In this document: piece by piece, positions 2,670 to 26,600 of the stretch | Layout: every line of letters starts with the position of its first letter | Position numbering within the stretch: the first letter of the stretch is position 1 | Source: a virus | Direction: 5' to 3' (one strand) | Virus record (IMG/VR): IMGVR_UViG_3300030451_003000 | Location: 1-45,075 of that record | DNA: 45,075 nt | Position numbers and translations under genes: made by a program | Notes under the pieces: model-generated | What the model was told of the DNA's origin: nothing | Databases searched by the model: none | What the model saw: only the letters and a program-made list of their open reading frames with translations

Positions 2670-3340
2670 GGTTAGACTCCCACAACAATGTAATGATTGG
2701 CATAGTCGATATTTATGCTGTGATGTTCTAACCTGACTGATAGTTCCTGATACTTTAATCAGGCCGCATTGCGAGGTAGAACAGATGAAAGGGACGATCC
2801 TGAGTAGTCTGTTCGCAGTCATAAAGTATAGCGGGTACAAGCTTTGGTAGGCTAGACGGTTTCATAAGCCGTAGTATTGTGAGTTCGATTCTCACACCCG
2901 CAACAAACAAGATGGTCTTGGCTCATACCCTAGATAAAATGTACAAAAAGAAGTGTCAGACCTGGCTCATACCCAAAGTTGACATCGCCATCTACGTAAT
3001 TAAAAGTATAGCGTAGCAAAAGGTTACCTTTTATACCTGCGGTTGACGTTATCGTAGCACATTATACATTTGAACCAATAGCTTAGAGGTGAAAGATGTG
3101 ATGTGCTTATTATTATTCCCAGTGGAGTTCAACATAAGATAAAGAGAACCTGATAGATGCGCTCACAAAATGCCTTGCGATCACATTGTAGCGTTAGTGA
3201 TGGGGCTTGTGCTATGCAGGCAGTTGCACACTGGGATACTATTAAAGGGGATATTGACAGGCGAGTACTAGCATTTAAGGATTTTGTGATTAATCGGTTC
3301 GAATCCGTGCATGGGTCAAAGGCCTTGGGCAAAAAACACA
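2670..3340 (+). ncRNA. Large structured RNA with embedded tRNA-like element
   Basis: More than 650 bases hold no credible gene but many complementary arms. Pairs are 2670-2676/2727-2733 (7 bp), 2746-2751/2758-2763 (6 bp hairpin), 2779-2785/2808-2814 (7 bp), 2911-2915/2988-2992 and 3018-3023/3027-3032. A pseudoknot-type pair is formed by 3057-3062/3101-3106 crossing 3070-3075/3127-3132. A long-range helix pairs 3163-3176 with 3277-3289 (13 bp, bulged G3172). A 12-base sequence is repeated at 2919 and 2963. A tRNA-like element sits at 2830-2903. Size, tRNA association and phage context resemble the GOLLD and ROOL classes of ornate phage RNAs, but membership was not tested. Ends are approximate. 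Confidence 0.6.
2830..2903 (+). tRNA. tRNA-like element with CAU anticodon (Met/fMet or Ile2)
   Basis: The acceptor has six pairs (2831-2836 with 2896-2901) and an unpaired A1/A72. The D-arm is 2840-2842 with 2851-2853. The anticodon stem is 2856-2860/2868-2872 with loop TTCATAA, and the T-arm is GTGAG-TTCGATT-CTCAC. The mismatched first pair recalls initiator tRNA, but position 8 is A instead of T and the three stacked G-C pairs of initiator anticodon stems are incomplete. CCA is not encoded (ACA follows). It could be a functional phage tRNA or a tRNA mimic inside the surrounding structured RNA. Confidence 0.65.
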
Positions 3341-3394
3341 AACAACTTAAATACTAACGAGGGTCAAGCCCCTTTTAAATTTATAAGGAGATAT

Positions 3395-4270
3395 ATGAAA
3401 TACGTAAAACGTAAAGCTATGACAATACGAGAGTCAGGCCGTAGTAGTGACTATATTAGTCCATCTTTTGGCTTTGGCTGTATGTATAAATGTAATTATT
3501 GCTATATGCGTAGACATGTACCTAATGGTCTAACCGTAGCAAATAATCCTGGCAATATACTAGATGCAATTTATGATCATGCATTTATGTTGGGACCTAA
3601 AGAGCCTAACCAGACACATAATAAGTTCTGGACGTACGATATTAGCTGTAACGAGGACTTTGTACTACATGCTAAATATCACAACTGGAAGTTAATATTT
3701 GACTTCTTTAAAATGTGTGGATTACCTGTATTTGCTACTATGGCAACTAAATATGTAAATGCTAGTTTACTAGACTATAATCCTATAGACGACGAAGGCA
3801 ACAAGCGTATACGTATTAGATTCAGTATTATGCCACAACATTTATCTGATCAGTTAGAGCCCAATACATCACTTATAGAAGATAGAATTAATGCTGTTAA
3901 TGCATTTTATGAGGCAGGTTATGATGTACATATTAATTATAGCCCTATTATACACTATGAGGGATGGCTTGATGACTATAAAGATTTATTTAATATGGTT
4001 AATGATACTATTGATGATAATATAAAGCATACTGTACTAGCTGAGTGTATATTTCTGACTCACAATCATAAGATGCATCGGTATAATGTAGAAAATAATA
4101 CTAAAGGCGAAGAGTACTTATGGCAACCAGGCAAACAAGAGACTAAAATGTCACAATATGGTAATGAAAACATCAGATATAATAGATTTTATAAGAATAA
4201 ATACATTAATCAATTTAAAGAATTACATAACAGTGTAATACCTTGGAACAAAATAAGATATATATTCTAG
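3395..4270 (+). CDS. Radical SAM protein, spore photoproduct lyase-like
   Basis: A 291-aa protein. Cys29, Cys33 and Cys36 form the CxxxCxxC motif (GCMYKCNYCYMRRH) that holds the 4Fe-4S cluster used to cleave S-adenosylmethionine. A TIM-barrel-like body follows, with a conserved-looking C-terminus (KMSQYGNENIRYNRFYKN, then IPWNKIRYIF). The layout resembles the spore photoproduct lyase branch of radical SAM enzymes, which repair thymine dimers, but the substrate cannot be told by eye; RNA or nucleotide modification is also possible. AAGGAGATAT precedes the ATG at 3395. An earlier ATG at 3311 lies in the structured RNA and was not used. Confidence 0.8.
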   Translation: MKYVKRKAMTIRESGRSSDYISPSFGFGCMYKCNYCYMRRHVPNGLTVANNPGNILDAIYDHAFMLGPKEPNQTHNKFWTYDISCNEDFVLHAKYHNWKLIFDFFKMCGLPVFATMATKYVNASLLDYNPIDDEGNKRIRIRFSIMPQHLSDQLEPNTSLIEDRINAVNAFYEAGYDVHINYSPIIHYEGWLDDYKDLFNMVNDTIDDNIKHTVLAECIFLTHNHKMHRYNVENNTKGEEYLWQPGKQETKMSQYGNENIRYNRFYKNKYINQFKELHNSVIPWNKIRYIF

Positions 4271-5386: not shown

Positions 5387-5633
5387 TTTTCATTATGTAG
5401 TGTTTATGTCGGTTAAAGATAAGGACGGCAAGGTAAATGATGTACCTTTATATCCATGTCTTTATGAGAATGACGCACAAAACTATATCACTGGATACGT
5501 ACATGCAATAATAAATCATACCGGTGAAGCCGATGAGGCAGAAGTAAGAGGTCAGTTTTCAATTCGAGATGTAGCTGGTCTAGATATTAACAAAAAAGAT
5601 AAAACAAATAAGGAGACTAAAGATGTCAACTAA
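5373..5633 (+). CDS. 86-aa hypothetical protein
   Basis: AAAGGGAGG precedes the ATG inside the previous gene. The N-terminal half looks like beta strands (FHYVVFMSVKDKDGK), the middle is helical (DAQNYITGYVHAIINH), and the C-terminus is a charged tail containing the ribosome site of the next gene. No family is recognised. It sits immediately upstream of, and overlaps, the ubiquitin-like gene. Confidence 0.55.
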   Translation: MELSDFHYVVFMSVKDKDGKVNDVPLYPCLYENDAQNYITGYVHAIINHTGEADEAEVRGQFSIRDVAGLDINKKDKTNKETKDVN

Positions 5634-5838
5634 AACAATCAAAGTACTATCAGGTGGTGGTTTCGTAACACAAGAAACTAGATCTGAAACAATGTGTGAG
5701 TTACGTGAGGAGATGGGTATATCAGCAAATGCATCAGCTGCAGTTGGTGGTACTAATGTAAGTAACTCATATCAGCTCCAAGAAGGTGATATCGTTGCCT
5801 TTGTAAATAACGATAAAACTGGTGGCGCACAAATTTAG
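5623..5838 (+). CDS. Ubiquitin-like beta-grasp (ThiS/MoaD-type) modifier
   Basis: A 71-aa protein that fits the beta-grasp pattern: strand TIKVLSGGG, strand FVTQETR, helix ETMCELREEMGI, strands ASAAVGG and TNVSNSY, then ELQ-type turn QLQEGDIVAFVNNDKTGG. Gly67-Gly68 are followed by only three residues (AQI), so trimming would expose a C-terminal Gly-Gly as in MoaD, ThiS and ubiquitin. The operon downstream supplies a JAMM peptidase (8674-9609) that could do the trimming and an E1-like enzyme (9609-10268) that could activate it. Its role could be protein conjugation or sulfur transfer. AAGGAGACTAAAG precedes the ATG. Confidence 0.65.
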   Translation: MSTKTIKVLSGGGFVTQETRSETMCELREEMGISANASAAVGGTNVSNSYQLQEGDIVAFVNNDKTGGAQI

Positions 5839-5852
5839 GTGTCTCCAAGATC

Positions 5853-6253
5853 TTTGGGTAGGAGATATAAAATAAGCTACCCAAAAATTAACCATAGTTT
5901 CTAAGATTTAGTCAAGCCATTTAGTGGCATTGTAGCCTGGTCTTAGACTTGAACATAACAGGTGAGATGTGTACCGCATGCGATGCTACGAGACATACTG
6001 TATAATTTGTTACTATGGTAAACTTACCGCACTCTGGCATAAAACTGAGATACCAATCTTAAGTAACCCTTCTTAAGCTCGGTTCCAGGGTGCGATCCTA
6101 TTATCCACAAGAGAGCCATAGGCACCCAGTACAAAATCAAGTGTAAGAGTTTGCGTACTGACCACGTCAATTATTACAAGGCTACAAGTTGCTTGTGTCT
6201 GGCATCGACCCCCAGGCTGGTTAAAAACTGTAAAGTCCTATGGCTAGTGGATA
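5853..6253 (+). ncRNA. Large structured RNA, unidentified class
   Basis: About 400 bases with no gene and dense pairing. Arms are 5853-5861/5877-5885 (9 bp), 5900-5906/5941-5947 (7 bp) enclosing the hairpin 5916-5919/5925-5928, and 5932-5936/5985-5989. A three-part arm is 6028-6037/6085-6094 (10 bp), 6043-6049/6078-6084 (7 bp) and 6058-6063/6072-6077 (6 bp). A closed 3' domain is 6102-6108/6247-6253 (7 bp) plus 6115-6122/6237-6244 (8 bp), with 6127-6132/6155-6160, 6185-6188/6192-6195 and 6199-6202/6212-6215 inside it. The run of consistent helices, several with G-U pairs, argues for a real RNA. I do not recognise RNase P, tmRNA or group I intron cores. It lies between the ubiquitin-like gene and its presumed partner genes. 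Confidence 0.6.
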
Positions 6254-6279
6254 TATTAACAAAAAATAAAGGAGATACA

Positions 6280-6648
6280 ATGGGTTTTGATGTAATAGGA
6301 AGAAAAGCAAAATCAGAAAAAGGTAAGTATTTTAGAAACAATGTATGGTATTGGCGACCATTATGGACATATGTATGCAGTGAATGCGATGATATACTTA
6401 CAATAAAAGAAGCTGAAGGCGGTACTTATAATGATGGTATAAAAATAAGTAAAACAAAAGCTGAGAAAATAGCTAAAAGACTTAAGAAAAGAATAGAAGA
6501 TGGCTCTGTAGATCTTCACAAAGCAGGATATGATGGAACTGTAGAGCAAATTGAAGACAAATGGGCTGGTAAATACCCTTTTGTAACACAAAACGTAATT
6601 GAATTTGCTGAGTTCTGTGAAGATTCTGGCGGATTTGAAATCTGGTAA
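6280..6648 (+). CDS. 122-aa conserved-type hypothetical protein
   Basis: The ATG at 6280 follows AAGGAGATACA; an upstream ATG at 6151 lies in structured RNA. The product begins MGFDVIGRKAKSEKGKYFRN and continues with a Trp-rich segment (NVWYWRPLWTYV). This opening is one I have seen on widespread phage and bacterial hypothetical proteins. A lone CSEC pair (residues 33-36) might bind metal with other ligands. The helical, lysine-rich middle is followed by a C-terminal part with FCEDSGGFEIW. No function is known to me. Confidence 0.6.
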   Translation: MGFDVIGRKAKSEKGKYFRNNVWYWRPLWTYVCSECDDILTIKEAEGGTYNDGIKISKTKAEKIAKRLKKRIEDGSVDLHKAGYDGTVEQIEDKWAGKYPFVTQNVIEFAEFCEDSGGFEIW

Positions 6649-6657
6649 AGGAGATAT

Positions 6658-7008
6658 ATGTATTACAATACAAATAATGAAACAGGCAATGAGTTAAAGA
6701 AATCTAAAAAGAAAACAATAAATCAAGATCAATTTATATTAGGAATATTTAATACCTGGAGAATAAATGATGGTATAACTCCTTCAGAAATAGAACATAT
6801 ATTAGTTGATGGTTACGATATAAATTGGCCACTTACAAGCATAAGAAGATCTATATCTACTTTAACTGATGCTGGTAAGTTAACTAAAACCAATAAGTTA
6901 CGGAAAGGTAAATATGGAAAGAATGAGCACGTCTGGAAGTTTAAATCACAAACACGTCAAGATATTAATGACACACATACTCCTGAAGAAAGGGATAACA
7001 GATTTTAA
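6658..7008 (+). CDS. Winged-helix-like DNA-binding protein
   Basis: A 116-aa protein. Residues 22-95 read as a winged helix: helix DQFILGIFNTWR, turn NDGITPSEIEHIL, recognition-type helix WPLTSIRRSISTLTDAGKLT, and a basic wing (KLRKGKYGKNEHVWKF). The layout resembles small phage regulators or replication-initiation modulators. Its position early in the unit that includes the E2/JAB/E1 genes would suit a local regulator. AAGGAGATAT precedes the ATG. The target is unknown. Confidence 0.55.
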   Translation: MYYNTNNETGNELKKSKKKTINQDQFILGIFNTWRINDGITPSEIEHILVDGYDINWPLTSIRRSISTLTDAGKLTKTNKLRKGKYGKNEHVWKFKSQTRQDINDTHTPEERDNRF

Positions 7009-7021
7009 ATGGGGTATTTGT

Positions 7022-7165
7022 ATGGGCTCTGAAGAATTATACTTTAGAGTAGGCTATTATGATAAATTCTTTTTAGAAGATGGATTAGAAAATGTATTTA
7101 CAGAACATGAATTAGAAGATAGTTGTTGCGGTAAGCTATATTCATATTATCTAAAGGGGGAATAA
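7022..7165 (+). CDS. 47-aa acidic hypothetical protein
   Basis: The chosen start is the ATG at 7022 (MGSEELYFRVGYYDKFFLED), just after the stop of the winged-helix gene; a longer frame from 6914 would overlap that gene throughout and has no better ribosome site. A GGGG run lies about 8 bases upstream. It contains a vicinal Cys-Cys (DSCCGK). The function is unknown. Confidence 0.45.
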   Translation: MGSEELYFRVGYYDKFFLEDGLENVFTEHELEDSCCGKLYSYYLKGE

Positions 7166-7365
7166 TGGCTAAAAGAGGAACGTTTGATGACTCACTAAAG
7201 AGTTGTCAAAAATGCCGTATCGTATGGCAAATTAAAGGCGCAATGCAAAAGTCTTATTATAATGATGGACATGATTATTATAAAGATTTCCCGCATTACG
7301 GACTAGAAAAAGCTACTTGCCCTAGATGCAAGAGAGAGGAGATACAAGATGGCGTCAACACTTGA
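7165..7365 (+). CDS. 66-aa zinc-ribbon protein
   Basis: CQKCRIVW at residues 14-21 and CPRCKREE at 52-59 make a four-cysteine zinc ribbon. AAAGGGGG precedes the ATG, which shares bases with the previous stop. It overlaps the E2-like candidate downstream. Zinc-ribbon and treble-clef proteins sit beside prokaryotic ubiquitin-like systems in some genomes, so a role as an adaptor is possible, but a plain nucleic-acid-binding role is equally possible. Confidence 0.6.
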   Translation: MAKRGTFDDSLKSCQKCRIVWQIKGAMQKSYYNDGHDYYKDFPHYGLEKATCPRCKREEIQDGVNT

Positions 7366-8671
7366 TGCAAGAAGAAGGTTTATAGATCAAATGAGCGATA
7401 TGAGCGATATCATAGAGCGTGTTGCTTTAGGACCACAAGAGGATGTTCTAGCTAAATTTGATGACTTAAACAATAGGTTTGGAACTGACTTTAGATGCAC
7501 ACCAACATTTAGATGGCAGCCTGGATTTTATAAGAAACTAAAAGAAGTATCTGGTAGATTGTCTAATATTACTGTTCAAAAGAATAAAGTTTCTACTTAT
7601 GCTAATAAAATACAACAAGGCAGATGGTATCTAGATACATTCTTAAGTAAAATACAAGAACTAGACAATAAACTATATTATCTAAGAAATAGTGGTATTT
7701 GCTTTCAGGATAATACTGAAGACGTTAATAGAGTTCTTGCAGAATATAAGAATACTATATCTAGCACTATGGATTCTGCTATGGAAATGTATCCACATAT
7801 AAATGTTTCTGTATATCATGGCTTACACTCTAATCAGTATGGCAATAGACAGAATAGAGATAAGCATGCTGTAATATTTCATATTTATATGGAAGGTATT
7901 AGCACTAATATTAATGTAGGTAGTGAATCTGTTGAAGTACCTATGGGTAATATAGATCTTATTATATCTGTTGATTTAGTTAAAGCTATAATGAATAGAA
8001 TAAAAAATACTAGGATATATTCTAGTGGTGCAGATCAGAATGGCCATAGTAGTCCATGGAATGGTGCTATATTTGAACCTAATGAAAGACATATATTGTT
8101 TCCATATATATCTAGCCATAGAATGAGATGGAATCAGCACTTGAATGTTGAATTTCAATCAGGTCAAAATACTAGCTCTAACTTTTACAATGTTTGTTTT
8201 GGTGATCACAACAGAGACATTATAGAATCAGCTTGGTCTGGTGATATGTTAGCATTATTTACATATCTTAATGCATGGACTAAGAACTTTAATGTAGGTC
8301 GTACTGGACCACTAAATGCATTTACAAAGATGTTTCATGGTATATGGCCTGAAATGGATAATTCAGAGGCATGGCATGCTACAGGTTCTTTGGAGCCAGG
8401 TAGAAGACTTGAGAACTGTGAATATGTACAAATAGTAGATAGTGAACAACCAGAGAATCCATATTGTGATAGATACCAATGTACACTTAGAAGTCAATGT
8501 GTAGTATATCAAGCAGCATACAATGAACAAGAGGAACCTAATGATAATGCTGATATGGAACAAGCGTTAAGAATAAATGAAGAGGGTGAGGTTGTAAACC
8601 AAACTCAATTAACAGAAGCCCAGTTACTAGAAATGTATCGTGGGATTAATACAGTAGACATAAGGAGATAA
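7349..8671 (+). CDS. E2-like candidate in the ubiquitin-like operon
   Basis: A 440-aa protein. The N-terminal ~140 residues are helical. From about 150 to 330 the pattern resembles prokaryotic E2/RWD-type folds: strands (HINVSVYHG, HAVIFHIYMEG), then FEPNERHILFPYISSHRMRW, then NVCFGDHNRDI with Cys283 where E2 enzymes carry the catalytic cysteine after an HP-type motif, then helices ending NAWTKNFNV. A cysteine cluster (C357, C373, C378, C384) may bind zinc. It is followed within 3 bases by the JAMM peptidase and then E1. The E2 call rests on context and loose pattern; no alignment was done. GAGGAGATACAAG precedes the ATG. Confidence 0.5.
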   Translation: MASTLDARRRFIDQMSDMSDIIERVALGPQEDVLAKFDDLNNRFGTDFRCTPTFRWQPGFYKKLKEVSGRLSNITVQKNKVSTYANKIQQGRWYLDTFLSKIQELDNKLYYLRNSGICFQDNTEDVNRVLAEYKNTISSTMDSAMEMYPHINVSVYHGLHSNQYGNRQNRDKHAVIFHIYMEGISTNINVGSESVEVPMGNIDLIISVDLVKAIMNRIKNTRIYSSGADQNGHSSPWNGAIFEPNERHILFPYISSHRMRWNQHLNVEFQSGQNTSSNFYNVCFGDHNRDIIESAWSGDMLALFTYLNAWTKNFNVGRTGPLNAFTKMFHGIWPEMDNSEAWHATGSLEPGRRLENCEYVQIVDSEQPENPYCDRYQCTLRSQCVVYQAAYNEQEEPNDNADMEQALRINEEGEVVNQTQLTEAQLLEMYRGINTVDIRR

Positions 8672-8673
8672 GA

Positions 8674-9609
8674 ATGAATCAAGAGTTTTATATAAGTCAA
8701 AGAGACTGGGATAAAATACAACAGTATTCACAGCAAGCTTATAATAGTCATAAAGCAGAAATAGGCGGTATGCTAGTAGCTATAGAAGATAAGGATGGTG
8801 ACTGGCAACTAAAAGATCCAGTGATACTTAAGCAAGAAATTAGTGCTAGTAATTGTGTATTAGATAAAGACGATTTAGCACTATATTATACAAAAGTGGG
8901 AACTAAACTCAAGAAAAAGAACTTTCGCTTTGTATGGTGGCATAGTCATCATAATATGGATGCTTTCTGGTCAGGCACAGACCTAACTGCTATTAAAGAG
9001 TATTCTGATGGTGATTTTAGCTTTGCATTAGTGGTAAATCTAAAAGAAGAATACAAGCTTAGAGTATCTGTCTGGAAACCTATAGAAGTACATGAAGATG
9101 TAGAACTTACTATTATAGGTACAGACAAGAAAATACCACAAAAGATACAAAACGAAGTTGAAGAAAAATGTAGTACTATAACATATGCTACTCCATGGAA
9201 AGGTAAGGGCGATTATACTGTGGGAAAGTCAAATCAGATGACTCTAGTGGATATGGATACTACCAGAGTTGGTGGTCAAAAGTTTAACCCTGAGTTATCT
9301 GGTGATTCAAAGGACTATGTATATGCATATAATATGGTAGATGAGATGAATAAAAGATACTGTGATGGTAGGTTAACATATGGAGGCTGGATTATCATGG
9401 CTAAGGATGTTAACAAACTTCTTAAAGATACATATGAAAGCATATATAGAGTAGAGTTAGTAACAGAAAAAGTGTTAGATGATCAAGTAATGCTATCAAC
9501 CCCTCATGAATACATAAGTGCTGACCCAACGTTAGATCCTGTATTTGAAAAAGAGTATGAGGATTGGCTAGATTATAAATCATATAACAAATCATATGGA
9601 GTAGACTAA
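8674..9609 (+). CDS. JAMM/JAB-family metallopeptidase (deubiquitinase-like)
   Basis: A 311-aa protein. Glu29 (AEIGGML) and the zinc motif HSHHNMDAFWSGTD give E...HxHx7SxxD with His90, His92, Ser100 and Asp103, the full JAMM active site. Such enzymes cleave after Gly-Gly of ubiquitin-like proteins, either to mature them or to remove them. The C-terminal ~190 residues are extra and probably bind a substrate or partner. The stop overlaps the E1 start (TAATG). With a Gly-Gly modifier encoded at 5623-5838, this is its likely processing or deconjugating enzyme. Phage tail JAB proteins exist, but this gene is in the early region. Confidence 0.85.
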   Translation: MNQEFYISQRDWDKIQQYSQQAYNSHKAEIGGMLVAIEDKDGDWQLKDPVILKQEISASNCVLDKDDLALYYTKVGTKLKKKNFRFVWWHSHHNMDAFWSGTDLTAIKEYSDGDFSFALVVNLKEEYKLRVSVWKPIEVHEDVELTIIGTDKKIPQKIQNEVEEKCSTITYATPWKGKGDYTVGKSNQMTLVDMDTTRVGGQKFNPELSGDSKDYVYAYNMVDEMNKRYCDGRLTYGGWIIMAKDVNKLLKDTYESIYRVELVTEKVLDDQVMLSTPHEYISADPTLDPVFEKEYEDWLDYKSYNKSYGVD

Positions 9610-10268
9610 TGATAAACACAAGATCATCAGAGTTAGTAAACAACTTAGAAGATTTTACTTTTCATATCTTGGGCTGTGGGGCTATTGGTAGTTCCGCAGC
9701 TCTACAAATAGCACGTATGGGTGCAGATAAGTTTTGTTTGTACGATATGGATAAAGTAGAAGAAGTAAATATAGGTGTATCACAATATACCTATGACGAT
9801 ATAGATAAGCCTAAAGTAACTGCACTAGCAAATCATTTAAGGGCTCTTGGAGTATTTACTATTAACGAAGTTAATGGTAGGTTTTCAGAGTTTAAGCCTG
9901 AGGGGAGTAATGATATTGCTATACTTGGCTTTGACTCTATGTCGTCAAGACTAGAAGCAGTAGAAGCATTGTTTAGCATACCAGGAGTAAAACCACTATA
10001 CATTATAGATGGTCGTATGGGTGCAGAACATTATCAGCAATATGTCTTTGATAAGCCTACTGTTAAGAAGTACAAAAACACATGGTATTCAGATGAATCA
10101 GGTAGCCCAGAGCCATGCAATGCAAAGGCAACTAGCTACTGTTCTAATTTATCAGGTAGCATGATAGCAAACACTGTTAGAAAGCTTGTTATGAAACAGC
10201 CATTCAATAGGTCATTTTCATTCAATTTTCCAACAATGTTATTGGATAAGTCGAGCATGGTGTCGTAA
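9609..10268 (+). CDS. E1/ThiF-like adenylyltransferase
   Basis: A 219-aa protein. A Rossmann nucleotide site, FHILGCGAIGSSAALQIARMG, begins at about residue 18 (GCGAIGS at 22-28). YDMDKVEEVNIGVSQ (Asp46/Asp48) and KPKV follow as in ThiF/MoeB/E1 enzymes, then GFDSMSSR (Asp109, Arg114). Cys170 or Cys178 (PCNAKATSYC) may form the thioester. It would adenylate the C-terminal Gly of the ubiquitin-like protein. It is shorter than eukaryotic E1s, lacks a ubiquitin-fold domain, and lacks the usual Arg after VEEVN. It is coupled to the JAMM gene and followed by a terminator, so it closes the operon. Confidence 0.85.
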   Translation: MINTRSSELVNNLEDFTFHILGCGAIGSSAALQIARMGADKFCLYDMDKVEEVNIGVSQYTYDDIDKPKVTALANHLRALGVFTINEVNGRFSEFKPEGSNDIAILGFDSMSSRLEAVEALFSIPGVKPLYIIDGRMGAEHYQQYVFDKPTVKKYKNTWYSDESGSPEPCNAKATSYCSNLSGSMIANTVRKLVMKQPFNRSFSFNFPTMLLDKSSMVS

Positions 10269-10306: not shown

Positions 10307-10334
10307 AAGGGCTGGTTAATTCTGGCCCTTTTTT
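10307..10334 (+). terminator. Rho-independent terminator after the E1 gene
   Basis: Positions 10307-10315 pair with 10322-10330 (9 bp including two G-U pairs, 6-base loop), followed by a T-run to 10334. It separates the ubiquitin-like operon from the recombination/replication genes. Confidence 0.75.
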
Positions 10335-11406: not shown

Positions 11407-11440
11407 ATATAATAGCCTGCTTAATTGTGGGCTATTATAT
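11407..11440 (+). terminator. 11-bp hairpin between SSB-like and primase genes
   Basis: Positions 11407-11417 pair perfectly with 11430-11440 around a 12-base loop, followed by TTTAAT. It is a moderate rho-independent terminator or an attenuator upstream of the primase-helicase ribosome site at about 11449. Confidence 0.6.
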
Positions 11441-11457
11441 TTAATACGGGAGATATA

Positions 11458-13233
11458 ATGATTAAAGAATTTGCATTCGGATTATCACAAAGGCATTACT
11501 TTCAAGATGCAGGTAATGTATGTGATTGGATGAATATTGATAAAGATACTTATATGTCTTTATATGATTTTGACGACTCTATTACTGAATATTTTGGTAA
11601 AAACAATAGTCTATCAGGATTTGATGGATTGGTCTATATACCTGATGAGTTCATACTAGATGTTGATGGTAAAGAAAATGATAACTTAAAAGAAGCAAGT
11701 CAAAAAGCTATTGGATTAACAATATTGCTAGAAGATTTAGGTATACCTTTTAGAATTTACTTTAGTGGCAATAAAGGATTTCATTTTGGTATACCAGGTA
11801 CATCATTTAGATGGAAACCTGACAAAAATTTACACCTAAAAGTAAAAGATGCACTAACAAATGCAGGTATATTTGACTATGCAGATCCTTCTGTTACAGA
11901 TAAAACTAGATTAATAAGAGTAAATAATACAAAGAATCTTAAACAAGGATTATGGAAATGTGTAATACCTAATAGTATATTGCATGAAGAAAATGTACTA
12001 GAAGCAATACAAAAAATAGCATTTAAGCCAGGAGATGTTTCAGATTTTGACTTAGAATGTGATCCAGTATTTGATGTACTAGAAAGGAATAATAATGAAG
12101 AAGAAGCTAAACCTCCACAATTTATCAGTCAAGGGAGGAATCCTGATCCAGTTAATTACCCTTGCATATCTAGTATGCTTAGTAGCCACGCAGTGGGTGA
12201 ACGTCACGCAACTGCTTTACGTCTCTCTGCTTGGTTTCGCTGGCTCTACCCTGAGTCAGTTGTACGTACTATCATGGAGCAATGGAGACAACAAGTAGAT
12301 AATCCATCTAGTCCTTTCGAAGCAAAAGAAATGGAAAGCATTATAAAAAGTGCTTATGAATCACATGGTGGACAAGGTAATAGATATGGTTGTAATGATA
12401 GCATAATGGATAAACATTGCTCTCAAACATGTAAACTGTATAAATCAAAGAAAAGTCAATCAGTTATGGATGCGCAAACTATGGAGCAAGACTTGATAAA
12501 CTTTTTGCGTAGTGATGTTAACCCTATAAACTTAGGAGATATATATCAAGGAGAAGACTTTCCTATATATCCAGGTGAGGTTGTTGTGATACAAGCACCA
12601 CCTAAATCTATGAAGACTATGTTCTTGCAGAATGTTATGAACGGACTTAAAAGACCGACATACTTTATAGAGATGGAAATGTCACCAAGGCAAATATGGT
12701 CTAGATTTGTACAGATAGAAATGGGGTGGTCAGAAGAAGAATTACGTACACATTATCAACAAATGCAAAATGGTATGGATAAACGATTTAAATGGTTAAC
12801 TGTTGACTATTCATGTCCGTATGCTAATGAACTAGAAAAACGTATATCTATGCTACCTGTTAAGCCAGAAATAGTTGTTGTCGATCATATGGGCTTGTTT
12901 AAATCTAAGCAAAGAGACCCTAATATGAAGACAGAAGAAGCATCACAGGCAATGATGGAATTGGCCGTTAGGCACAATGTAATTGTCTTTGCTGTTAGTG
13001 AGATAACTAAGTCTGCATTTCATGAAGGCAGTATGAATATAGCATCAGCTAAAGGTTCATTTAGAACTGCATACAATACTAATAAATTGCTATCTGTAAT
13101 ACCTTCTAAGAGTCTTAAGACCGGTCTTATAGAACAGCTAAGAGTTAGATGTGAAGCCAATCGTGAACGTGAGCATTTAGATGTTACGTTAAAGGTAAAC
13201 AATAGTAGTATAGTTAAGGAGAGATATTCGTGA
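11458..13233 (+). CDS. AEP-type primase fused to RecA-fold helicase
   Basis: A 591-aa protein. Residues 60-170 carry archaeo-eukaryotic primase signatures: FILDVDGKEND (Asp68, Asp70), FSGNKGFHFGIPG (His109) and RLIRVNNTKN. Residues 235-330 form a helical domain ending in a likely zinc site (C312, H320, C321, C325). Residues 375-590 are a RecA/DnaB-like ATPase with Walker A APPKSMKT (Lys386, Thr387) and Walker B IVVVDHMG (Asp476). The Walker A lacks its usual glycines. It probably primes and unwinds the phage replication fork. Residues 213-280 are encoded by DNA that also carries a second ORF. GGGAGATATA precedes the ATG at 11458. The stop TGA overlaps the next GTG. Confidence 0.85.
   Translation: MIKEFAFGLSQRHYFQDAGNVCDWMNIDKDTYMSLYDFDDSITEYFGKNNSLSGFDGLVYIPDEFILDVDGKENDNLKEASQKAIGLTILLEDLGIPFRIYFSGNKGFHFGIPGTSFRWKPDKNLHLKVKDALTNAGIFDYADPSVTDKTRLIRVNNTKNLKQGLWKCVIPNSILHEENVLEAIQKIAFKPGDVSDFDLECDPVFDVLERNNNEEEAKPPQFISQGRNPDPVNYPCISSMLSSHAVGERHATALRLSAWFRWLYPESVVRTIMEQWRQQVDNPSSPFEAKEMESIIKSAYESHGGQGNRYGCNDSIMDKHCSQTCKLYKSKKSQSVMDAQTMEQDLINFLRSDVNPINLGDIYQGEDFPIYPGEVVVIQAPPKSMKTMFLQNVMNGLKRPTYFIEMEMSPRQIWSRFVQIEMGWSEEELRTHYQQMQNGMDKRFKWLTVDYSCPYANELEKRISMLPVKPEIVVVDHMGLFKSKQRDPNMKTEEASQAMMELAVRHNVIVFAVSEITKSAFHEGSMNIASAKGSFRTAYNTNKLLSVIPSKSLKTGLIEQLRVRCEANREREHLDVTLKVNNSSIVKERYS
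12095..12298 (+). CDS. Nested out-of-frame two-helix membrane ORF
   Basis: A 67-aa ORF in the +1 frame inside the primase-helicase gene. AAAGGA lies 7 bases before its ATG. The product has a basic start (MKKKLNLHNLSVKGG) and two hydrophobic segments (about residues 16-34 and 40-58) with a polar end, a holin-like shape. Across this stretch the primase frame switches from its usual AGA arginine codons to CGT/CGC, as expected if both frames are constrained. It may still be a chance ORF. Confidence 0.35.
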   Translation: MKKKLNLHNLSVKGGILIQLITLAYLVCLVATQWVNVTQLLYVSLLGFAGSTLSQLYVLSWSNGDNK

Positions 13234-17659: not shown

Positions 17660-20600
17660 TTATGGACACCAATAAACTTCTTTGTTTTTATTAGCGGTAC
17701 TTGTTATTGGTTCGTATTTCTGCATTTTAGAAGACATATTCATACCTTCGCCACTATATAAATTTACATAAGAACCTCTTCTAGTCCTAACTATACCTTG
17801 TGATCTGATTAGATCGGCTATAGGACCACGAACAAGGTTAAATTTATCAGATAAAAGATTACTTACAAAGCTAGATCTTTCACCATATTTATAAAATTGA
17901 TTATCCCAATCATTACTATGAAGCATGTCAGCTCTGTTTAGTAAGTCAGCATCTTTAGGACTAACACCTTCATGCAAACTAGCATAATAATCAGAATGCA
18001 TTTGTATTCTATCTGCAAGTAAATCTACAAACCCATTGTCTGTAACCCATTTTAATACTGCTTTTTGTAGTCTTTTGTTTACTTTAAATGCTGGTAACAA
18101 GCTAGCACCTTCTCCTTTAACTACACTTCTTGGTATACCTTCTGGAGCTAATAATTGCAATGCTATATTTGTTACCATTTTTTCATCAAAAGATTTTGTG
18201 TCTTTGTCTTGTCCCCACTTTCTAAACACTTCACTTAAAAGGTTTTGCTCTTCTAATCCAGCTTCCATCCATATTTCTTTAGCAAAAACAGCAGAGTCTT
18301 TAGCTTGGTCTCTTCTCATTCTAAAGCTATAATCTATTTTTTCCATTACAGTTTTTATATCTTCAACAAACTGAGGATGATTTTCTGGAGCCATATAGTT
18401 ATCCCAGTGTATATCTCTAGTAGTTAAATGCCAAGCATAAGCATTCTTTACATCTTTTGCTTCCATATTCTTAGCAAATAAAGGGTTTTCTAATATAATG
18501 TATGTATGACCACCTTCTAGATTTTGAGAGGCATTAGCGTTAACATTAGCATAAAATTGTAAACCGCCAGGTTTACCATACTCTAAGCTCTTAATAAAAC
18601 TTTCATCTATCTTGTCTGCAAACTTATTAACTCGATATATAACAACATCTCTTTTGCTTCTGTTTTTATAGAACCGATTTCTTCTAGCTTTAATTGGAGC
18701 ATTTCTTTGGCCAATTTCTTCTATTTTTTGACCTAGCTGATTCATTGATGCTTTTTGTATTGCATTCATGGCTATAACAACACTAGCTAATTCATTCTGC
18801 AAAGACTCTATTTTTGTATTGCTTTTGTTTCTATTCATGCTCTTATTATACTCAAGGTTTTGCACTACTTCTCTATGTCTGTTGTTTAAATAAGTATAAG
18901 CTACACCTCTATTCTCATGAGCTCTTATGTCTTTACCTAATATATTTTTTAATCCGTACTCAACTTTTCCTTCTTCTATAGATCTATATAAGCTTTCTTC
19001 GCCTTCACCTAAAAATCTAAGCATTGTTATGCTATCAATTAAATTCCTTGTATCACCTACTATATCAGATTTTAATCCAGAGCTAGATATATTTTTTTCA
19101 GCAAATGTTTGCTTAGAGTTAAATGAGTCAAGTATTTTACCTGAAGCAAATTTATTCATTAGCTCACTTGTTGTTCCTTTATCAAATTCAAAAACTTTGT
19201 CAATCACATTTTCTTTTGACCAAAATTTTCCTGCTCTAATATCATTAATTATCTTTTCAACTATGCCTTTTGCATGTAAACCATATCTAGTATCTTTTTT
19301 GTCAGCCCCTCCAAAGAATAATTTTGTCAGTGACTCTATTTCACTGGTCATTCCTCTTCTTTGGTATTGCTTAAATAAAGACATAAAGATATGTTTATTA
19401 CCATTAGATCCTAGTAAGTTGCTCATGTCTCTATAGTGTCTGTTTATATCCCATGGAGTTAGTGATCTTTGTACTCCATTTTCATATATATCGTTAAATA
19501 AACTTTGAGCTCTTCGCATTTTAGTAATAACTGCTGTAATAACATCTTGCTGAACAGATCTATCTAATGTTGTTTTTGCATCTATCGTAAATACAGGCTT
19601 ATAAGGTTTCTTAGTATCGCTAGTATAATGCTCTGGAATTTGATTTTCTTTTGCTAAATCATTTACTTCACCAAACAATACAAACTTTTCTACGCTATTT
19701 AAGTCATCAAAAAGCTTTGCAGTACCACCAAAAGGATCTACATTTGTTTGTACAACATTACCATTTCTTTCTATAAACTGAGCTACATTGTTTATATTTT
19801 CTCTGCTAGGAACATAATTCATTTTTTCAGATCCCAATGCAGTAAATTTAAAACCTATATTTGATAAAGAAGTTAAAGGTTGGCTAATACCTACAAAGGT
19901 ACCTATTGCCATTTTTTGACTCTGTCTTCTTGCTACATACTCACTTAATCCGTCTCCAGTAGAGCTACCAAAATCTGATGCACTAGTTGTATTGCCTTGC
20001 AAAAATGGATCTACAGGCACAGGATTTCTATCGTACTTTTTATAATCTATTACTATACCACCCATTTCATATGCTTGTCTTGTGTATGACATAGGCAAAT
20101 TGCTATAAGTATATATATGGTCCATATCAAAATCTCTTTGATGTGTAACAGCAACTTCGTAGTCATTAGTAACAACATGGTTACTGTAATCTGGGTTTAA
20201 TATATGCTCAACTCTATTTGCAGCAACATCTAAAGACTTTCTAGGTATAGCAACAGTATTAACCATTTGCCCTAAATTTAACTTCTTAACAGCCTTCATT
20301 ATTCTATCGCTAAATATTCTTTCACCATTAATAAATCCTTCTTGGAGCAGATTAAAGACATCATTATTTGTAGATATCTTACCATTCTCAATTAAGGTTT
20401 TAATTTCTTTATATATAAAGTCAAGCTCTTTTGGTTTATTAAATGTTCTAGTTTTAGTTTCACCTTTTAGTCTTGGGTTTTTTACATTGTTTTGACTAGT
20501 AATAACATCATATGGATTTATAATATCTGGTCGACCTTTTTCATCAAACCCTATAATATGATCTATACCAGAAATTTTTGCTACTAATCTAACATTTTTA

Positions 20601-23600
20601 ATGTTATTAACTTCCTTTAGACCCCAGTCATAACTTTGAGCTATTCCACCTAATTGAGTTTGTATTCTTATATTATTAATCCTAGTATCAATACCATCAA
20701 TTTCAGGTAATTCAGATTCCATTCTTCTAAATATAGGCCCAGATAAAGCATCTTTGTTTTCTCCATGCCATATAAAATTAAGGTCTTCAGCTATTAAATA
20801 AGAAGAGGTTCCACCATTTTTGTCTTGTGGCCTTCTAATCATATTCATTGCTTGAGTCATAAAGGCTCTATTTATAACATCTTTTATTATAGGATTATCA
20901 GTACGCATACCTACGTTTAATAACCCTTCTGCCATACTTTGAGTTTCCGACAATATGCTAACACCTTCTGTAGTGTTTTTATATTCACTTAATCCTCTTG
21001 CAATTTCAATCTTTGCATTATCTAACTGCTGCTTAGAGTAGTAAGAAATTTCACCTAGTATATAATCTAGCTGCTGATATTCCATTAAATCTAATGCTGC
21101 TCTTGGGTTAGCAAAATTATTTAAAGAATGCATTACACTTACGCCTCTATCTGGATGATTATTTGAACCAATAGATAAAGCATTAATAGGCAGGCTAATA
21201 ACATTTTTACCACTAGACATATCTAGGGATCTTAATTCACCTTCCCAGTTAGACTTGTCTTTAAATTTTAAAAAGTCAAGTTTATTACCTGCATTATCAA
21301 CACCCATAAACATTTTAGCAGCACTCTGAGTAGTTAATATATTTAATCCTTTTGATTTAAGAAGTTCAGCCTTTCTTGGACTATACACTAACCATGTCTT
21401 CATAGCCACTAGATTGCCTGTTCCTGGATCTTTATAGTATCCAATAGGTTTCCATCCATTAATCTTAGAAGGATCAAATTCTTGCCCAATTCTTGCAGAT
21501 AAAACCATTGCTAAATCTTCATCTATAAATGTTGCAGCATTAAATGTAGATGCATCTAAACTTTGCATATAGTTTTCATCGCCATCTCTTAGTTCTTGCA
21601 ACTCTTTTAATTGCTCTTCTAAGTCTTGCTTAGCTAATGGGTCAGTTTCTGCTTTAATTCTATCTTGTAGCTCTTTATCCCTTGCTGTAGAAACAGTCCA
21701 TGTTGGATCGTTATCAATTTCATCTCCAATTGCAGCAGTCTTTAATCCATTGTCTAGTATGTTTTTACTTGCTGCATATAATCTAGCATTATAGTCTGCA
21801 TCTCCAGGTCCATTATTGTTATCTGCTTGTCTAGATATATAATCTAATACATTCTCGGAAAATGGATGCATGTTACCACCTTCATACAGCTTAAGTCTCT
21901 TATAAAACTTGTCATCAAAAGCTTCTCTTGCTGTTCTATTTGTCATTAAGTCGTTTGTAAATCTATTTTCATAAACATTAGGCAATGCAGTATCCCAATA
22001 TAAACTTCTAAGCTTTAATACTACACTTTTAGAACTTGTCCCTTCAGAGTTTGCTAATGTTTCCATAGAGTCTCGCCAGTTATTTAGCTTAATTTGCTCT
22101 AACCTAACATCTTTTTCACTCATTTTATTTATTTTTTCTTGCCAAACTTGCTCTTTACCAGCTCTCCATGTATTAAACCAATCATTAAGTTTTTGAATGT
22201 TATGTGGAGTTTTTTCAAATAAGAATGAATTACCTTCTGAAACCATAATGCTAACTGAATTAGAAGGATTTGGAACGTCTGTAAAATCAACAATAAAATC
22301 TGAAGCATCAATTTTATCACCACTAGCAACATCTTTTTGCATATCTTTAGTTGCAGATACCCTTGCTAGCAATGGACGATCAGAAGCTAGTCTTTCATTT
22401 AATTCGATTTGTGCTATATGTTTAGACTGTCCATTATCAACAGCAGTTGTTTCTAGTTCAAACAGTTTTAAGATACCAAACGATGCAGCTTCTCTTCTAA
22501 AGTCTGATCTTGGACCCCTAATAGTAGGACGAGCAAGATCGTATTCTATCATTCCTTCTGATACTTTACCTACAGGGACTAACTCTGTACCACTTAAATG
22601 ATCTACAATTAAAATCCAATCCTTTTGAAATGATGATGTAAGCTCTTGAAGTTTAGCCATGTTTTCTTTGTCAGCTAAAGAACCTACAGACTGGGTAATG
22701 TTTTCATCTATAATTTTATCTTTTAATGCATCTAATCTAGCTGTATCATTAGAGTCAAGAGCTAAGTTAACTTCATTTAAAATATATTGATCAATAGGCT
22801 CACCCATTTTACCAAGCATATTATACTTTTCAATATATGCACCCATCTGTCTTGTTGGAGATGTATAGCTATATCTTTCTATAAATTTAGAAAAGTTACT
22901 ATGCAAGTCATTATCAAATTCTACTTCTTTATTTAAAAGTTGTGTTTGAGATAATGATTTTTGAAATGATCTTATTACCATCTTAAAATCTTTAAAGCTT
23001 CTTGTTGTATTGTATTTATCAACAAGCTCTTCAAGACTTGTCTCGCTAGTTAATTCTATATCTAATTTCTTTGCTAGTTCTTTTCTTAAGCCTTGAAAGG
23101 TTTCGTAAGCTTGGACGCTACCTTTACCTTTGCTTTGATATATCATTTGAGTTATAAGGCCATTTAATTCATTGGCAGCATAGCTATCATTAGCCATTAA
23201 ATATCTAAATGCTTGACCGGGATCATACTGCCTTCCATCTGGGCCTTCAATAAACTCTTGAGAAAGTTGTTCAAAAGTTATCTGACCATCAACAATTTTC
23301 TGTATAGATTTTGTTAAGCCATTAAATATTCTCATGTCATTAGACTCAGTAGATACTTTATTTTTTAATGCTTGTAATGCAACTTCAATAGACTCAACCC
23401 CTGATGCACCATCTGTATCTGAAAAGTTTTTTAAAGATGTATTTAAATCTTCTACTAAACTGTTTACTATACTCCTGCTAAAATCCATTCTTCCATTTTC
23501 ATCTACTAGATTTAGTTTTTCTTTAACATTAGCCAATGGTCCATCTATTAGTTTTGCCATTTGCTTTGGTAAAGAGTTCCATATAATGTCAATAGACTGA

Positions 23601-26600
23601 GGGCTATCTATTCTTCCAACATCTTCTCTAGGAAATGTAATTTCTTCAACATATTTAATTTTACCGTTTCCAGTTCCTATTAAATCAATAATTTGTTGCC
23701 ATCTTTCTGCTGCTTTAGATGCAACTGTAGGGTCAAATCCACCTTCGTTAATAAGCTGAAGGCGTTTACCTTCTGCGCTCATTATTTGTATTTCTTTAGT
23801 GTCTCTATTTATAGCCCACTCATGATCTTCCATTAGCTTTGATATAATGCCAAATTTAGCAGGACTTACTACTTGATTAGACAGCCTTCTTATTTTATAG
23901 TCATTAAATCTATCATTAAAACCTGGGTCTAAAATGCTTTCGTTAATTAAACCAGACCTTTCAATTAGGTCTACTGCTCTTGTTATATCTACTAAATCAA
24001 CACTTTTAACTGCATCACCTTCTTTATCACTTCTACCATCTAAAAATAAATCAGTTAGTATTTCAAATTTAGCAATTGCATCTTGCTGCTTAGTATCAAG
24101 AGCATTAACATTAACGTCTTCATCACCTCTTTTAATTCTTATTTGGAGAGATGGATTAGATATTAACCCTCCTTCTACCTTTAGTATATTTTTTAAAGTC
24201 TCTACTATTGTTATCTGGTCATTGCTTAATTGATCTATATTGCTCATATTAATATCAAACAAAGCCATAAGATTTTTTCTTGATGAGCCTTCTTCAATAT
24301 CACCTAATATATGATTATTAAATGGATCAAAGTCAGGTATATCTTCAACGCCTTTACCGTATGCACCTTCTTTTAGCTGCTGTGTAAACTCTTGAACCCT
24401 TGCATCTAATCTTGCTCTATTTTCTGCTCCAGAAACACCTTCAAATATAGTTGGATCAAAAGCCTTACTAGCACTTCTTTCAAGCATTCCTAATCTTTCA
24501 AACCTGTTTAATACAGCATCTAACCCAGTTAAAAGTATGTTAGGGTCTTTCATCTGATCGAAATTTAAACTAGGTGCAGTTATTTTACCTGATACCTCAT
24601 CTACATCTATATCTATTAAACCATCTTCTTTTAACTTCTTAAAGAATAATTTATAATTATAAGCACCACCTTCTCCTAATTGTATTGCTATAAAATCTTC
24701 TACTTGTGTAGCAGAAAAATCACCAAGATACTTAGGTTTACCTTCTATAGTATCTGTAATTTTAATTTCTTTTAAGTCTGCAAGGAGCTCAACTCTTTGC
24801 TCTTTTGTTAAATATCTTAACTCTAACGGATCATAATCGTATGGATTATTTTGTCTAGCTAAATCCATAGTATAGTGTATTTGACGAGCTAACTCTAAGT
24901 CACCTTCTGTAAATGGGTTTATTTCAGTTAGTGGCTCACCATTTCTTTTGTTTTCTTCTACTGCTGCTCTTGTGTTTTCTATGATATTATACATTTTACT
25001 AGTAGCTGGATTTCTATGTAAACCTCCACCAACCTGTGCATGAAAATCTCCTGCATTTATTTGTGCAACCCTACCTGCTAATGCATCAGTATTTAATCCC
25101 ATTGCATTAGAAACAGCATACCAGTCTTTTAATGCTGGTGTAGGTTCAGATCCATGATTCCACTGTCCTCTTGTTCTTGTAAAAAATGCTCCCATTGCAC
25201 TATGATATGCTATTTCTGCATAACTTAAATCGTCAAAGAATTGATCTTTACTTTTCCACCTGTTAGTTCTTGGGTCTCTCATAAACTCTAAGTTATTAAC
25301 AAATGCACCAAGAGTCATTGCTGGTAAAGCACCTGCAAAATCTTTAGCCCATTCTTTACCGTACTTGGCTATACCTTCACGGCCAGTTACAAACTTTCTC
25401 ATGTTTTCTAATAACTCAGCAGATTCTTTAGCAGTTAGTTTATCTATTTCAAAGTCATCGTATACATTAATAGACTTTTCTCCAACCTTCCATTTCTTAC
25501 CAGCCATAAGATTTTTTGTTGTACCGCCACGTAAAGACTTAATAAATGTATGAAGTGTTTGTTTCCCATTTTTGCCTGCAGCTATTTTTGCATAATTAGC
25601 ACCTCTATATGCATTAATAATACCACTAAGACCTTGCCTAATTGTTAGTTTACCACCAAAGTTAGCAGCTCCTTGTATAGCAGTATCAGCTCCACTAAAG
25701 AAAGCTGCGTGTGCCCATGCATTGTATAACTCACTTGGACCAAAGTTTTCTCCTAAAGTAAGTTCACGAGCTTGACCTGCAAGAGTGCTATATAGCCCAA
25801 ATTGGACAGTTTCTGCTCCAGCCATACCTAACCACTTAACAAAGTTTTTCTTCATCCCTAATGGCATTTTATCAACTCCTAAGAGATTTGACATCCACTT
25901 ATCTGCATTATTTATATGCTTACCTTCTCTTATACCTTGTTTAAATGTATTTACTATATTGTCTAAATATTTTGCAGACATAGATATATTATTGTCTGAA
26001 GCTATTTTAGCTAATCTAGCTCTAGCATTTTGACCTACTGTTTCAATTATTGTTTCAGCAGCTTCACCACCCAAAGATAATTGATTAATTCCAGGCTTTG
26101 ACACATCGTCATATACAGATTTATTAAGAGCAGTGGTAATGTCATCTACACCTTTTTTAGATAAGCCTTTTTTTAGCTTGGTAGCAGCAGCTTTTTTAGC
26201 AGAATCTTGAACAATTTGTTTAGTGCCTTGCCTAGTTGCAAAACCTATTCCTTTGCCTAATGCTGAACCTACAAGCCTAACACCAGTAAAAGGGTTCATC
26301 ATTCCTGCAAACTCACCAAGACCTGCAGCTACTTTTTCTGTGTTACTTTTTTCTTCCCATGGTTCTGTTTCTGTAAGTCCAGCAACACGACTTAATCCAA
26401 AAGTTCCAGACTCAACTGCATGTTGTGTAAATGTAGATACAAAGTCGCCAAGATCAAATCCCTCATCCATTGCATCCATTAAATTTGTTTCTTGATATTC
26501 TTGAAGTATTGGATTTATATTAGATATAGGAGCAGGAGAGTGAGAGCTTTGTAGATTACCTAATGATGTATTTCTTTTCTCTCTTTCTTCTCTTTGCTTT

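Follow-up and report, generated by a model that had tools for sequence, protein, structure and literature searches.

Can a phage run a ubiquitin-like protein-tagging pathway of its own? The question is raised by a stretch of viral DNA from IMG/VR record IMGVR_UViG_3300030451_003000 (53,013 bases), of which bases 1-45,075 were analysed; this stretch of 45,075 nucleotides (nt) is referred to here as the window. The source virus is a tailed phage whose portal is P22-like. On its minus strand are encoded this P22-type portal, the subunits of the terminase and a major head protein with a weak match, and its plus strand carries an Erf-like protein, a primase-helicase and, adjoining these, four open reading frames (ORFs) that a preliminary description had read as a complete conjugation set: a ubiquitin-like modifier (Ubl; 5623-5838, 71 amino acids (aa)), an E2-like protein (7349-8671, 440 aa), a JAMM/JAB metallopeptidase (8674-9609, 311 aa) and an E1/ThiF-like adenylating enzyme (9609-10268, 219 aa). 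All four ORFs were confirmed on the plus strand at these coordinates. We consider it probable that these genes give the phage a reversible pathway of its own for tagging proteins with a ubiquitin-like modifier.

Four genes kept together in related phages

Scanning with single proteins reached three contigs, of which two hold the complete set and the third breaks off at the E2-like gene. Profile scans of viral contigs yielded 320 relatives of the E1 and 220 of the JAMM peptidase, and the best 80 of each were kept for the analysis of loci. Flank was taken as adequate if at least 5 kb upstream and at least 3 kb downstream of the E1 gene were present, and loci were counted as non-redundant if the last 200 E1 residues differed, a definition under which some of the loci are still close relatives. 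In total 53 non-redundant E1 loci had adequate flank; the complete set of four is found in 50 of them, the remaining three being crAss-like records, which were examined and are considered below. The preliminary description had raised the questions whether the genes stay together in related phage contigs and whether the E1/JAMM pair also occurs without a Ubl gene. They do stay together, and the Ubl gene accompanies the pair in 50/50 of these loci. As the set is kept in every one of them, its presence in the window goes beyond chance and suggests that phages run protein tagging for themselves.

The E2-like and JAMM genes lie at most 60 nt apart in 40 of the 50 loci and the JAMM and E1 genes at most 120 nt apart in 49, and in 35 the Ubl gene precedes the E2-like gene by at most 500 nt. 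Elsewhere, including the group to which the window belongs, the Ubl gene is located farther upstream; it follows the E1 gene in two loci (L018 and L019) and stands between the E2-like and JAMM genes in one (L076). This rearrangement without gene loss argues that the four genes work together. Within the window, the stop of the E2-like gene and the start of the JAMM gene are separated by 2 bases and the JAMM and E1 genes overlap by 1 base, in line with the earlier view of these three as one coupled unit. Its closure by a terminator held only in part: a terminator-like hairpin can be read from the sequence at 10307-10334 (+; AAGGGCTGG TTAATT CTGGCCCTT TTTT), but just four T follow the stem and the consensus terminator scan did not list it. 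The Ubl gene is located 1.5 kb upstream of the unit, and the interval holds small ORFs and a structured stretch without coding sequence.

This stretch, which follows the Ubl gene and precedes the next ORF, is a structured non-coding RNA at 5838-6275 (+) with its core at 5883-6106. It has a fold z-score of -3.3 and counterparts in five relatives from the window's group, and 15 of 54 consensus pairs have both partners changed in one or more of the six sequences. No Rfam match reached the gathering threshold, and the more divergent loci searched gave no match. It is possibly a new phage RNA.

The modifier and its three partner proteins

By sequence profile the 71-aa Ubl is nearest to ThiS/MoaD, and its match to Pfam ThiS is weak and below cut-off (E=0.02). 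An AlphaFold2 model built from 12 sequences (predicted local distance difference test score, pLDDT, 83) shows the strand-strand-helix-strand-strand-strand order of a beta-grasp followed by a flexible Gly-Gly end. Compared with the PDB by Foldseek, the model is closest to MTH1743 (E=5.8e-4) and then to TINCR, SUMO, ubiquitin, MoaD and TtuB. A beta-grasp fold is thus predicted from model and structural neighbours alike, as the preliminary description had expected. Among 72 homologues, Lys65, Gly67 and Gly68 are conserved to 100% (Lys-x-Gly-Gly in 72/72; Gly67-Gly68 at 5821-5826, +). The window protein ends in DKTGGAQI, with a tail of 3 residues after the Gly-Gly that is predicted to be removed. 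In 17 of the 72 Ubls the chain terminates directly after Gly-Gly, and the others carry mostly unrelated tails ranging from one residue to about 35, with two related ones of about 60. Given a constant Gly-Gly and disposable, variable tails, the Ubl looks like a cleaved ubiquitin-like precursor.

The JAMM protein scores 24.9 bits against Prok-JAB PF14464 in the protein search (cut-off 25) and 26.9 bits, above the cut-off, in the genome search, and its profile matches N11/Rpn11-like peptidases (E=5e-6). The full active site attributed to it earlier is intact in 111/111 homologues: the metal and catalytic motif H90-S-H92-x7-S100-x2-D103 (8941-8982, +) is accompanied by Glu29 (8758-8760), and E29, H90, S91, H92, S100 and D103 are all invariant. 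The assignment of the last ORF as an E1/ThiF enzyme proved equally sound, with a match to ThiF PF00899 at E=6.8e-15 and profile matches to UBA5, MccB and ThiF and, more weakly, to Cap2 and BubCD. It is of ThiF/MoeB-like size without an extra domain. Lys69, Asp109 and Cys170 are found in 100% and Cys178 in 98% of 109 homologues. Cys170 (10116-10118, +), conserved in the crAss-like E1 as well, is the candidate thioester cysteine and probably carries the thioester.

Scans against Pfam, PHROGs and NCBIfam gave no meaningful family match for the 440-aa protein. E2 enzymes carry the signature HPN...ICLD, and this is resembled by the signature of the phage family, in which a loop whose length varies separates (H/F/Y)P(Y/F)I from VCxGD. 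Cys283, Pro252 and Pro321 are invariant in 83 homologues, so that an E2-type active-site cysteine motif is present. The candidate catalytic cysteine Cys283 lies within VCFGD (8195-8197, +), and the counterpart of the HPN motif is FPYI, residues 251-254 (8099-8110, +), whose first position is occupied by His in 44, Phe in 30 and Tyr in 8 of the 83 homologues. The AlphaFold2 model (77 sequences, pLDDT 81.6) has, ahead of the cysteine, a helix followed by a meander of three strands, a second helix and a further strand, and behind it two helices, a topology compatible with the E2 (UBC/RWD) fold, and Foldseek against viral models found six viral homologues (E <1e-17). When PDB profiles were searched with the E2-like alignments of phages and bacteria, the outcome was coiled-coil noise or no match. 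With hhalign, for which unrelated pairs gave E>=0.12, the phage core matched that of the bacterial E2-like proteins described below, the alignment covering the HP...Cys stretch (E=3.8e-6, prob 87). The bacterial proteins often read HPHV-x2-DG-x2-C, and some Prok-E2_B proteins have PHV-x2-DG-x2-C or a sequence near it. On account of this HP-like/Cys signature, the invariant Cys283 and the bacterial profile match, the 440-aa protein is likely an E2 enzyme; these points sustain the earlier E2 claim, but Foldseek against the PDB recognised no E2 fold.

Four further cysteines (C357, C373, C378 and C384; 8417-8500, +), 93-99% conserved, form a cluster on the C-terminal side of the candidate active site. 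A planctomycete counterpart (L201) likewise has a cysteine-rich C-terminus. The cluster could bind metal, as zinc or an iron-sulfur cluster, and could serve in target recognition.

A proposed reversible tagging pathway and its alternatives

In the proposed pathway, the Ubl would be made as a precursor, in some relatives already ending at Gly-Gly, and the JAMM peptidase would trim the tail after Gly68. The E1 would then adenylate the exposed Gly-Gly, probably holding the Ubl on Cys170, from where it would pass to Cys283 of the E2-like protein for attachment to lysines of the target. Removal of the tag by the JAMM enzyme would make the process reversible. The basis of this proposal is the predicted beta-grasp, the conserved Gly-Gly with disposable tails, the intact E1 and JAMM sites, the E2-like cysteine and the strict co-occurrence of the genes. 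As regards the complete conjugation pathway put forward in the preliminary description, all four parts are present and the set is conserved in 50/50 loci; it is the trimming, the relay of thioesters, joint covalent conjugation through isopeptide bonds, deconjugation and the targets that we infer.

Several observations weigh against it. The window protein has Phe instead of His in the HP motif, and the length between this motif and the cysteine varies widely across the family. Foldseek of the E2-like model against the PDB gave nothing significant, with no E2 among the matches listed, and the Pfam E2 families match neither the phage nor the bacterial E2-like protein. Against seven Prok-E2_B sequences, drawn from two phyla, the bacterial core aligned weakly with the same motif in register (E=0.007) and the phage core gave no direct match by hhalign (E=0.32); searches for Prok-E2_B and Prok-E2_D in one further phylum yielded 0 matches, as did the controls, and so carry no weight either way. 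The link to primase genes described below may reflect a stable phage gene order and not function. Finally, we know of no target or conjugate of the phage Ubl set.

Among the alternatives we first considered a sulfur-carrier system of the ThiS/ThiF, MoaD/MoeB or CysO type, in which the E1 would make a thiocarboxylate, the JAMM peptidase would release the product and the 440-aa protein would be an acceptor or scaffold. The nearest relatives of the Ubl, ThiS/MoaD by profile and MTH1743 by structure, fit this, as do the size and simple architecture of the E1, and JAB peptidases do adjoin Ubls of sulfur metabolism (PMC1779556). It is nevertheless unlikely. Rhodanese and pyridoxal phosphate-dependent cysteine-synthase families, searched with positive controls, were not found in 14 phage records, which weakens a sulfur-carrier role, even if these records are possibly incomplete and the host could supply such enzymes. 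The presence in 50/50 loci of a constant partner bearing an HP...Cys signature is also at odds with it, and the long disposable tails after Gly-Gly fit a cleaved precursor.

The 440-aa protein might, instead of acting as an E2, be the dedicated target that the E1 and Ubl modify, or offer its Cys283 as an end acceptor, with the JAMM enzyme reversing the bond. Its size and divergence, its extra four-cysteine cluster and the lack of a recognised E2 fold would agree with such a role, but the HP-like motif ahead of the invariant cysteine and the profile match to bacterial proteins with HPHVxxDGxxC, a signature also seen in Prok-E2_B proteins, make it quite unlikely.

Host systems for Ubl tagging counter phages (PMC10449767; for Bil, as cited in PMC13373217), and the phage E1 is distantly similar to the E1-E2 proteins of one of them, the cyclic-oligonucleotide-based anti-phage signalling system (CBASS). 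Counter-defence against Bil or CBASS Cap2/Cap3, the Ubl being a decoy and the JAMM enzyme a remover of host tags, is all the same a rather remote explanation, as a full, active-looking enzyme set with its own E2-like protein exceeds what a decoy needs, and near-universal presence in the family suggests a core function; the constant replication-gene neighbour also speaks against it. Virion maturation of the kind suggested for the lambda tail proteins I and K, with the Ubl and JAMM proteins processing a structural protein, is very improbable: Ubl-JAB pairs of phages have been described in tail clusters (PMC1779556), but this set includes E1 and E2-like genes and is located not in a tail cluster but next to Erf and primase-helicase, on the strand opposite to that of the head and packaging genes.

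Known systems, counterparts and the replication-gene neighbourhood

Iyer, Burroughs and Aravind (2006, PMC1779556) predicted bacterial Ubl/E1/E2/JAB operons of types 6a-6e, and the phage set belongs to this kind. The general features seen in the phage set are a beta-grasp Ubl with C-terminal glycine, an E1/ThiF protein, a JAMM peptidase with an intact metal site and an E2-type active-site cysteine motif. Similar to these types, and to type 6d in particular, Ubl, E1-like, E2-like and JAB genes share one neighbourhood, and the E2-like protein has a conserved cysteine, with many members of types 6a-6e lacking the classical E2 histidine. In contrast to the phage set, type 6d is bacterial and includes an extra alpha-helical protein, and the phage E2-like protein is set apart from types 6a-6e by matching no Pfam Prok-E2 model. 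In the part of that paper drawn on here, the report on phages is limited to the Ubl and JAB pair in a tail cluster. As far as these sources go, the Ubl/E1/E2/JAB systems of the cited papers are bacterial, and several defend against phages. No description of a complete phage-borne Ubl set was found in the open-access literature, subscription papers being outside that scope.

PRTRC systems have Ubl, E1, E2 and JAB parts in common with the phage set and a weak E1 similarity to PRTRC_ThiF. They are excluded by the tests run, in which no NCBIfam equivalog reached its cut-off (PRTRC_A 13.7 against 101.8 bits, PRTRC_ThiF 22.7 against 144.75 bits). CBASS type II Cap2/Cap3 shares E1, E2 and JAB activities and a distant similarity of E1 and JAB. 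However, Cap2 is an E2-E1 fusion that works with a cGAS/DncV-like nucleotidyltransferase (CD-NTase) and without a Ubl, whereas the phage has separate E1 and E2-like ORFs and a Ubl. CBASS type II is excluded by this separation, by the absence of a SMODS nucleotidyltransferase from the phage record and by the phage E1 matching only part of the CBASS E1-E2 models. With Bil/Bub the set has Ubl, E1, E2 and JAB parts in common, and the phage E1 matches BubCD weakly (E=6e-4). Neither NCBIfam nor PADLOC gave a Bil- or Bub-named match, the presence of such models in these libraries being unchecked.

Further counterparts emerged when bacterial genomes were scanned with the E1 profile, a search that revealed operons holding Ubl, E2-like, JAMM and E1 genes in metagenome-assembled genomes of Myxococcales, Planctomycetes, Methylomirabilota and Omnitrophica (L196-L215). 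All four genes are visible in some of the loci fetched, not in every one. As in the phage set, a Ubl ending in Gly-Gly, an E2-like protein with HPH(V/I)...C, a JAMM peptidase and an E1 are encoded side by side, and the bacterial and phage Ubls align with an hhalign E-value of about 1e-8. Unlike in the phage set, the active-site spacing of the E2-like protein is close to the classical one, and in one annotated copy a coupling-protein gene is located upstream and a primase gene downstream. In several genomes among L201-L215 the bacterial E2-like gene has between two and six matches. Multiple copies per genome, adjoining coupling-protein and primase genes where inspected, suggest a family of mobile elements that has a Ubl system of its own. 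These bacterial counterparts bear on the origin of ubiquitin-like conjugation.

Among named phages, tblastn with the E2-like and JAMM proteins found no match, and crAss-like and Flavobacterium phages were reached via the E1 only, the crAss E1 being about 30% identical to that of the window. Gene order in crAss001 (gp79-gp76) and Flavobacterium phage FpV4 (gp53-gp50) is the same as in the phage set: a Ubl-like N-terminus with a long tail, a protein of 420-444 aa, JAMM and E1, with a primase adjoining. In the 420-444 aa protein one cysteine is invariant across the crAss-like set. The crAss Ubl mostly has Ser-Gly, unlike the Gly-Gly of the phage set, and that of FpV4 has KSGG followed by about 200 residues; crAss and phage Ubls align with E=2e-4 in one hhalign setting and 1.5e-3 in another. 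Profile comparison of the crAss 444-aa family with the phage and bacterial E2-like families gave no significant similarity, and E2 homology of the crAss protein is therefore not claimed. The crAss001 and FpV4 sets are probable counterparts of the phage set, and as both phages are cultured they make the system testable at the bench. In GenBank, crAss001 gp76 is labelled ThiF and gp77 metalloprotease, each singly.

A primase gene is the recurrent neighbour. In 49/50 phage loci a primase-helicase, which stands outside the pathway itself, is encoded about 2 kb downstream of the E1 gene (11425-13233, +, in the window); in crAss001 a primase gene precedes gp79; and in the annotated Myxococcales copy a DnaG-type primase lies just downstream of E1, with the conjugative coupling protein upstream. 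Because the set adjoins such genes in phages, crAss-like phages and a bacterial element copy alike, we would guess, tentatively, that the targets of the Ubl are phage or host replication and recombination proteins, and the adjoining replication genes are the first place to seek them. A wider and slightly more doubtful proposal is that tailed phages, gut crAss-like phages among them, and related bacterial mobile elements carry complete, reversible Ubl pathways, tied in the phages to their replication modules, comparable to fork control by SUMO and ubiquitin. The preliminary description is extended here by the counterparts in bacteria and crAss-like phages, the tails of the precursor and the constant primase-helicase neighbour.

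Three further features of the window were noted. A protein of 2988 aa without a Pfam match is encoded at 17660-26626 (-), on the strand that also carries the head and packaging genes. A tRNA-Met gene (anticodon CAT) is located at 2830-2904 (+), and the rightward region contains, at 3311-4270 (+), a spore photoproduct lyase-like radical S-adenosylmethionine protein (Pfam SPL, E=1e-25), which at a guess has a role in the repair of DNA damaged by ultraviolet light.

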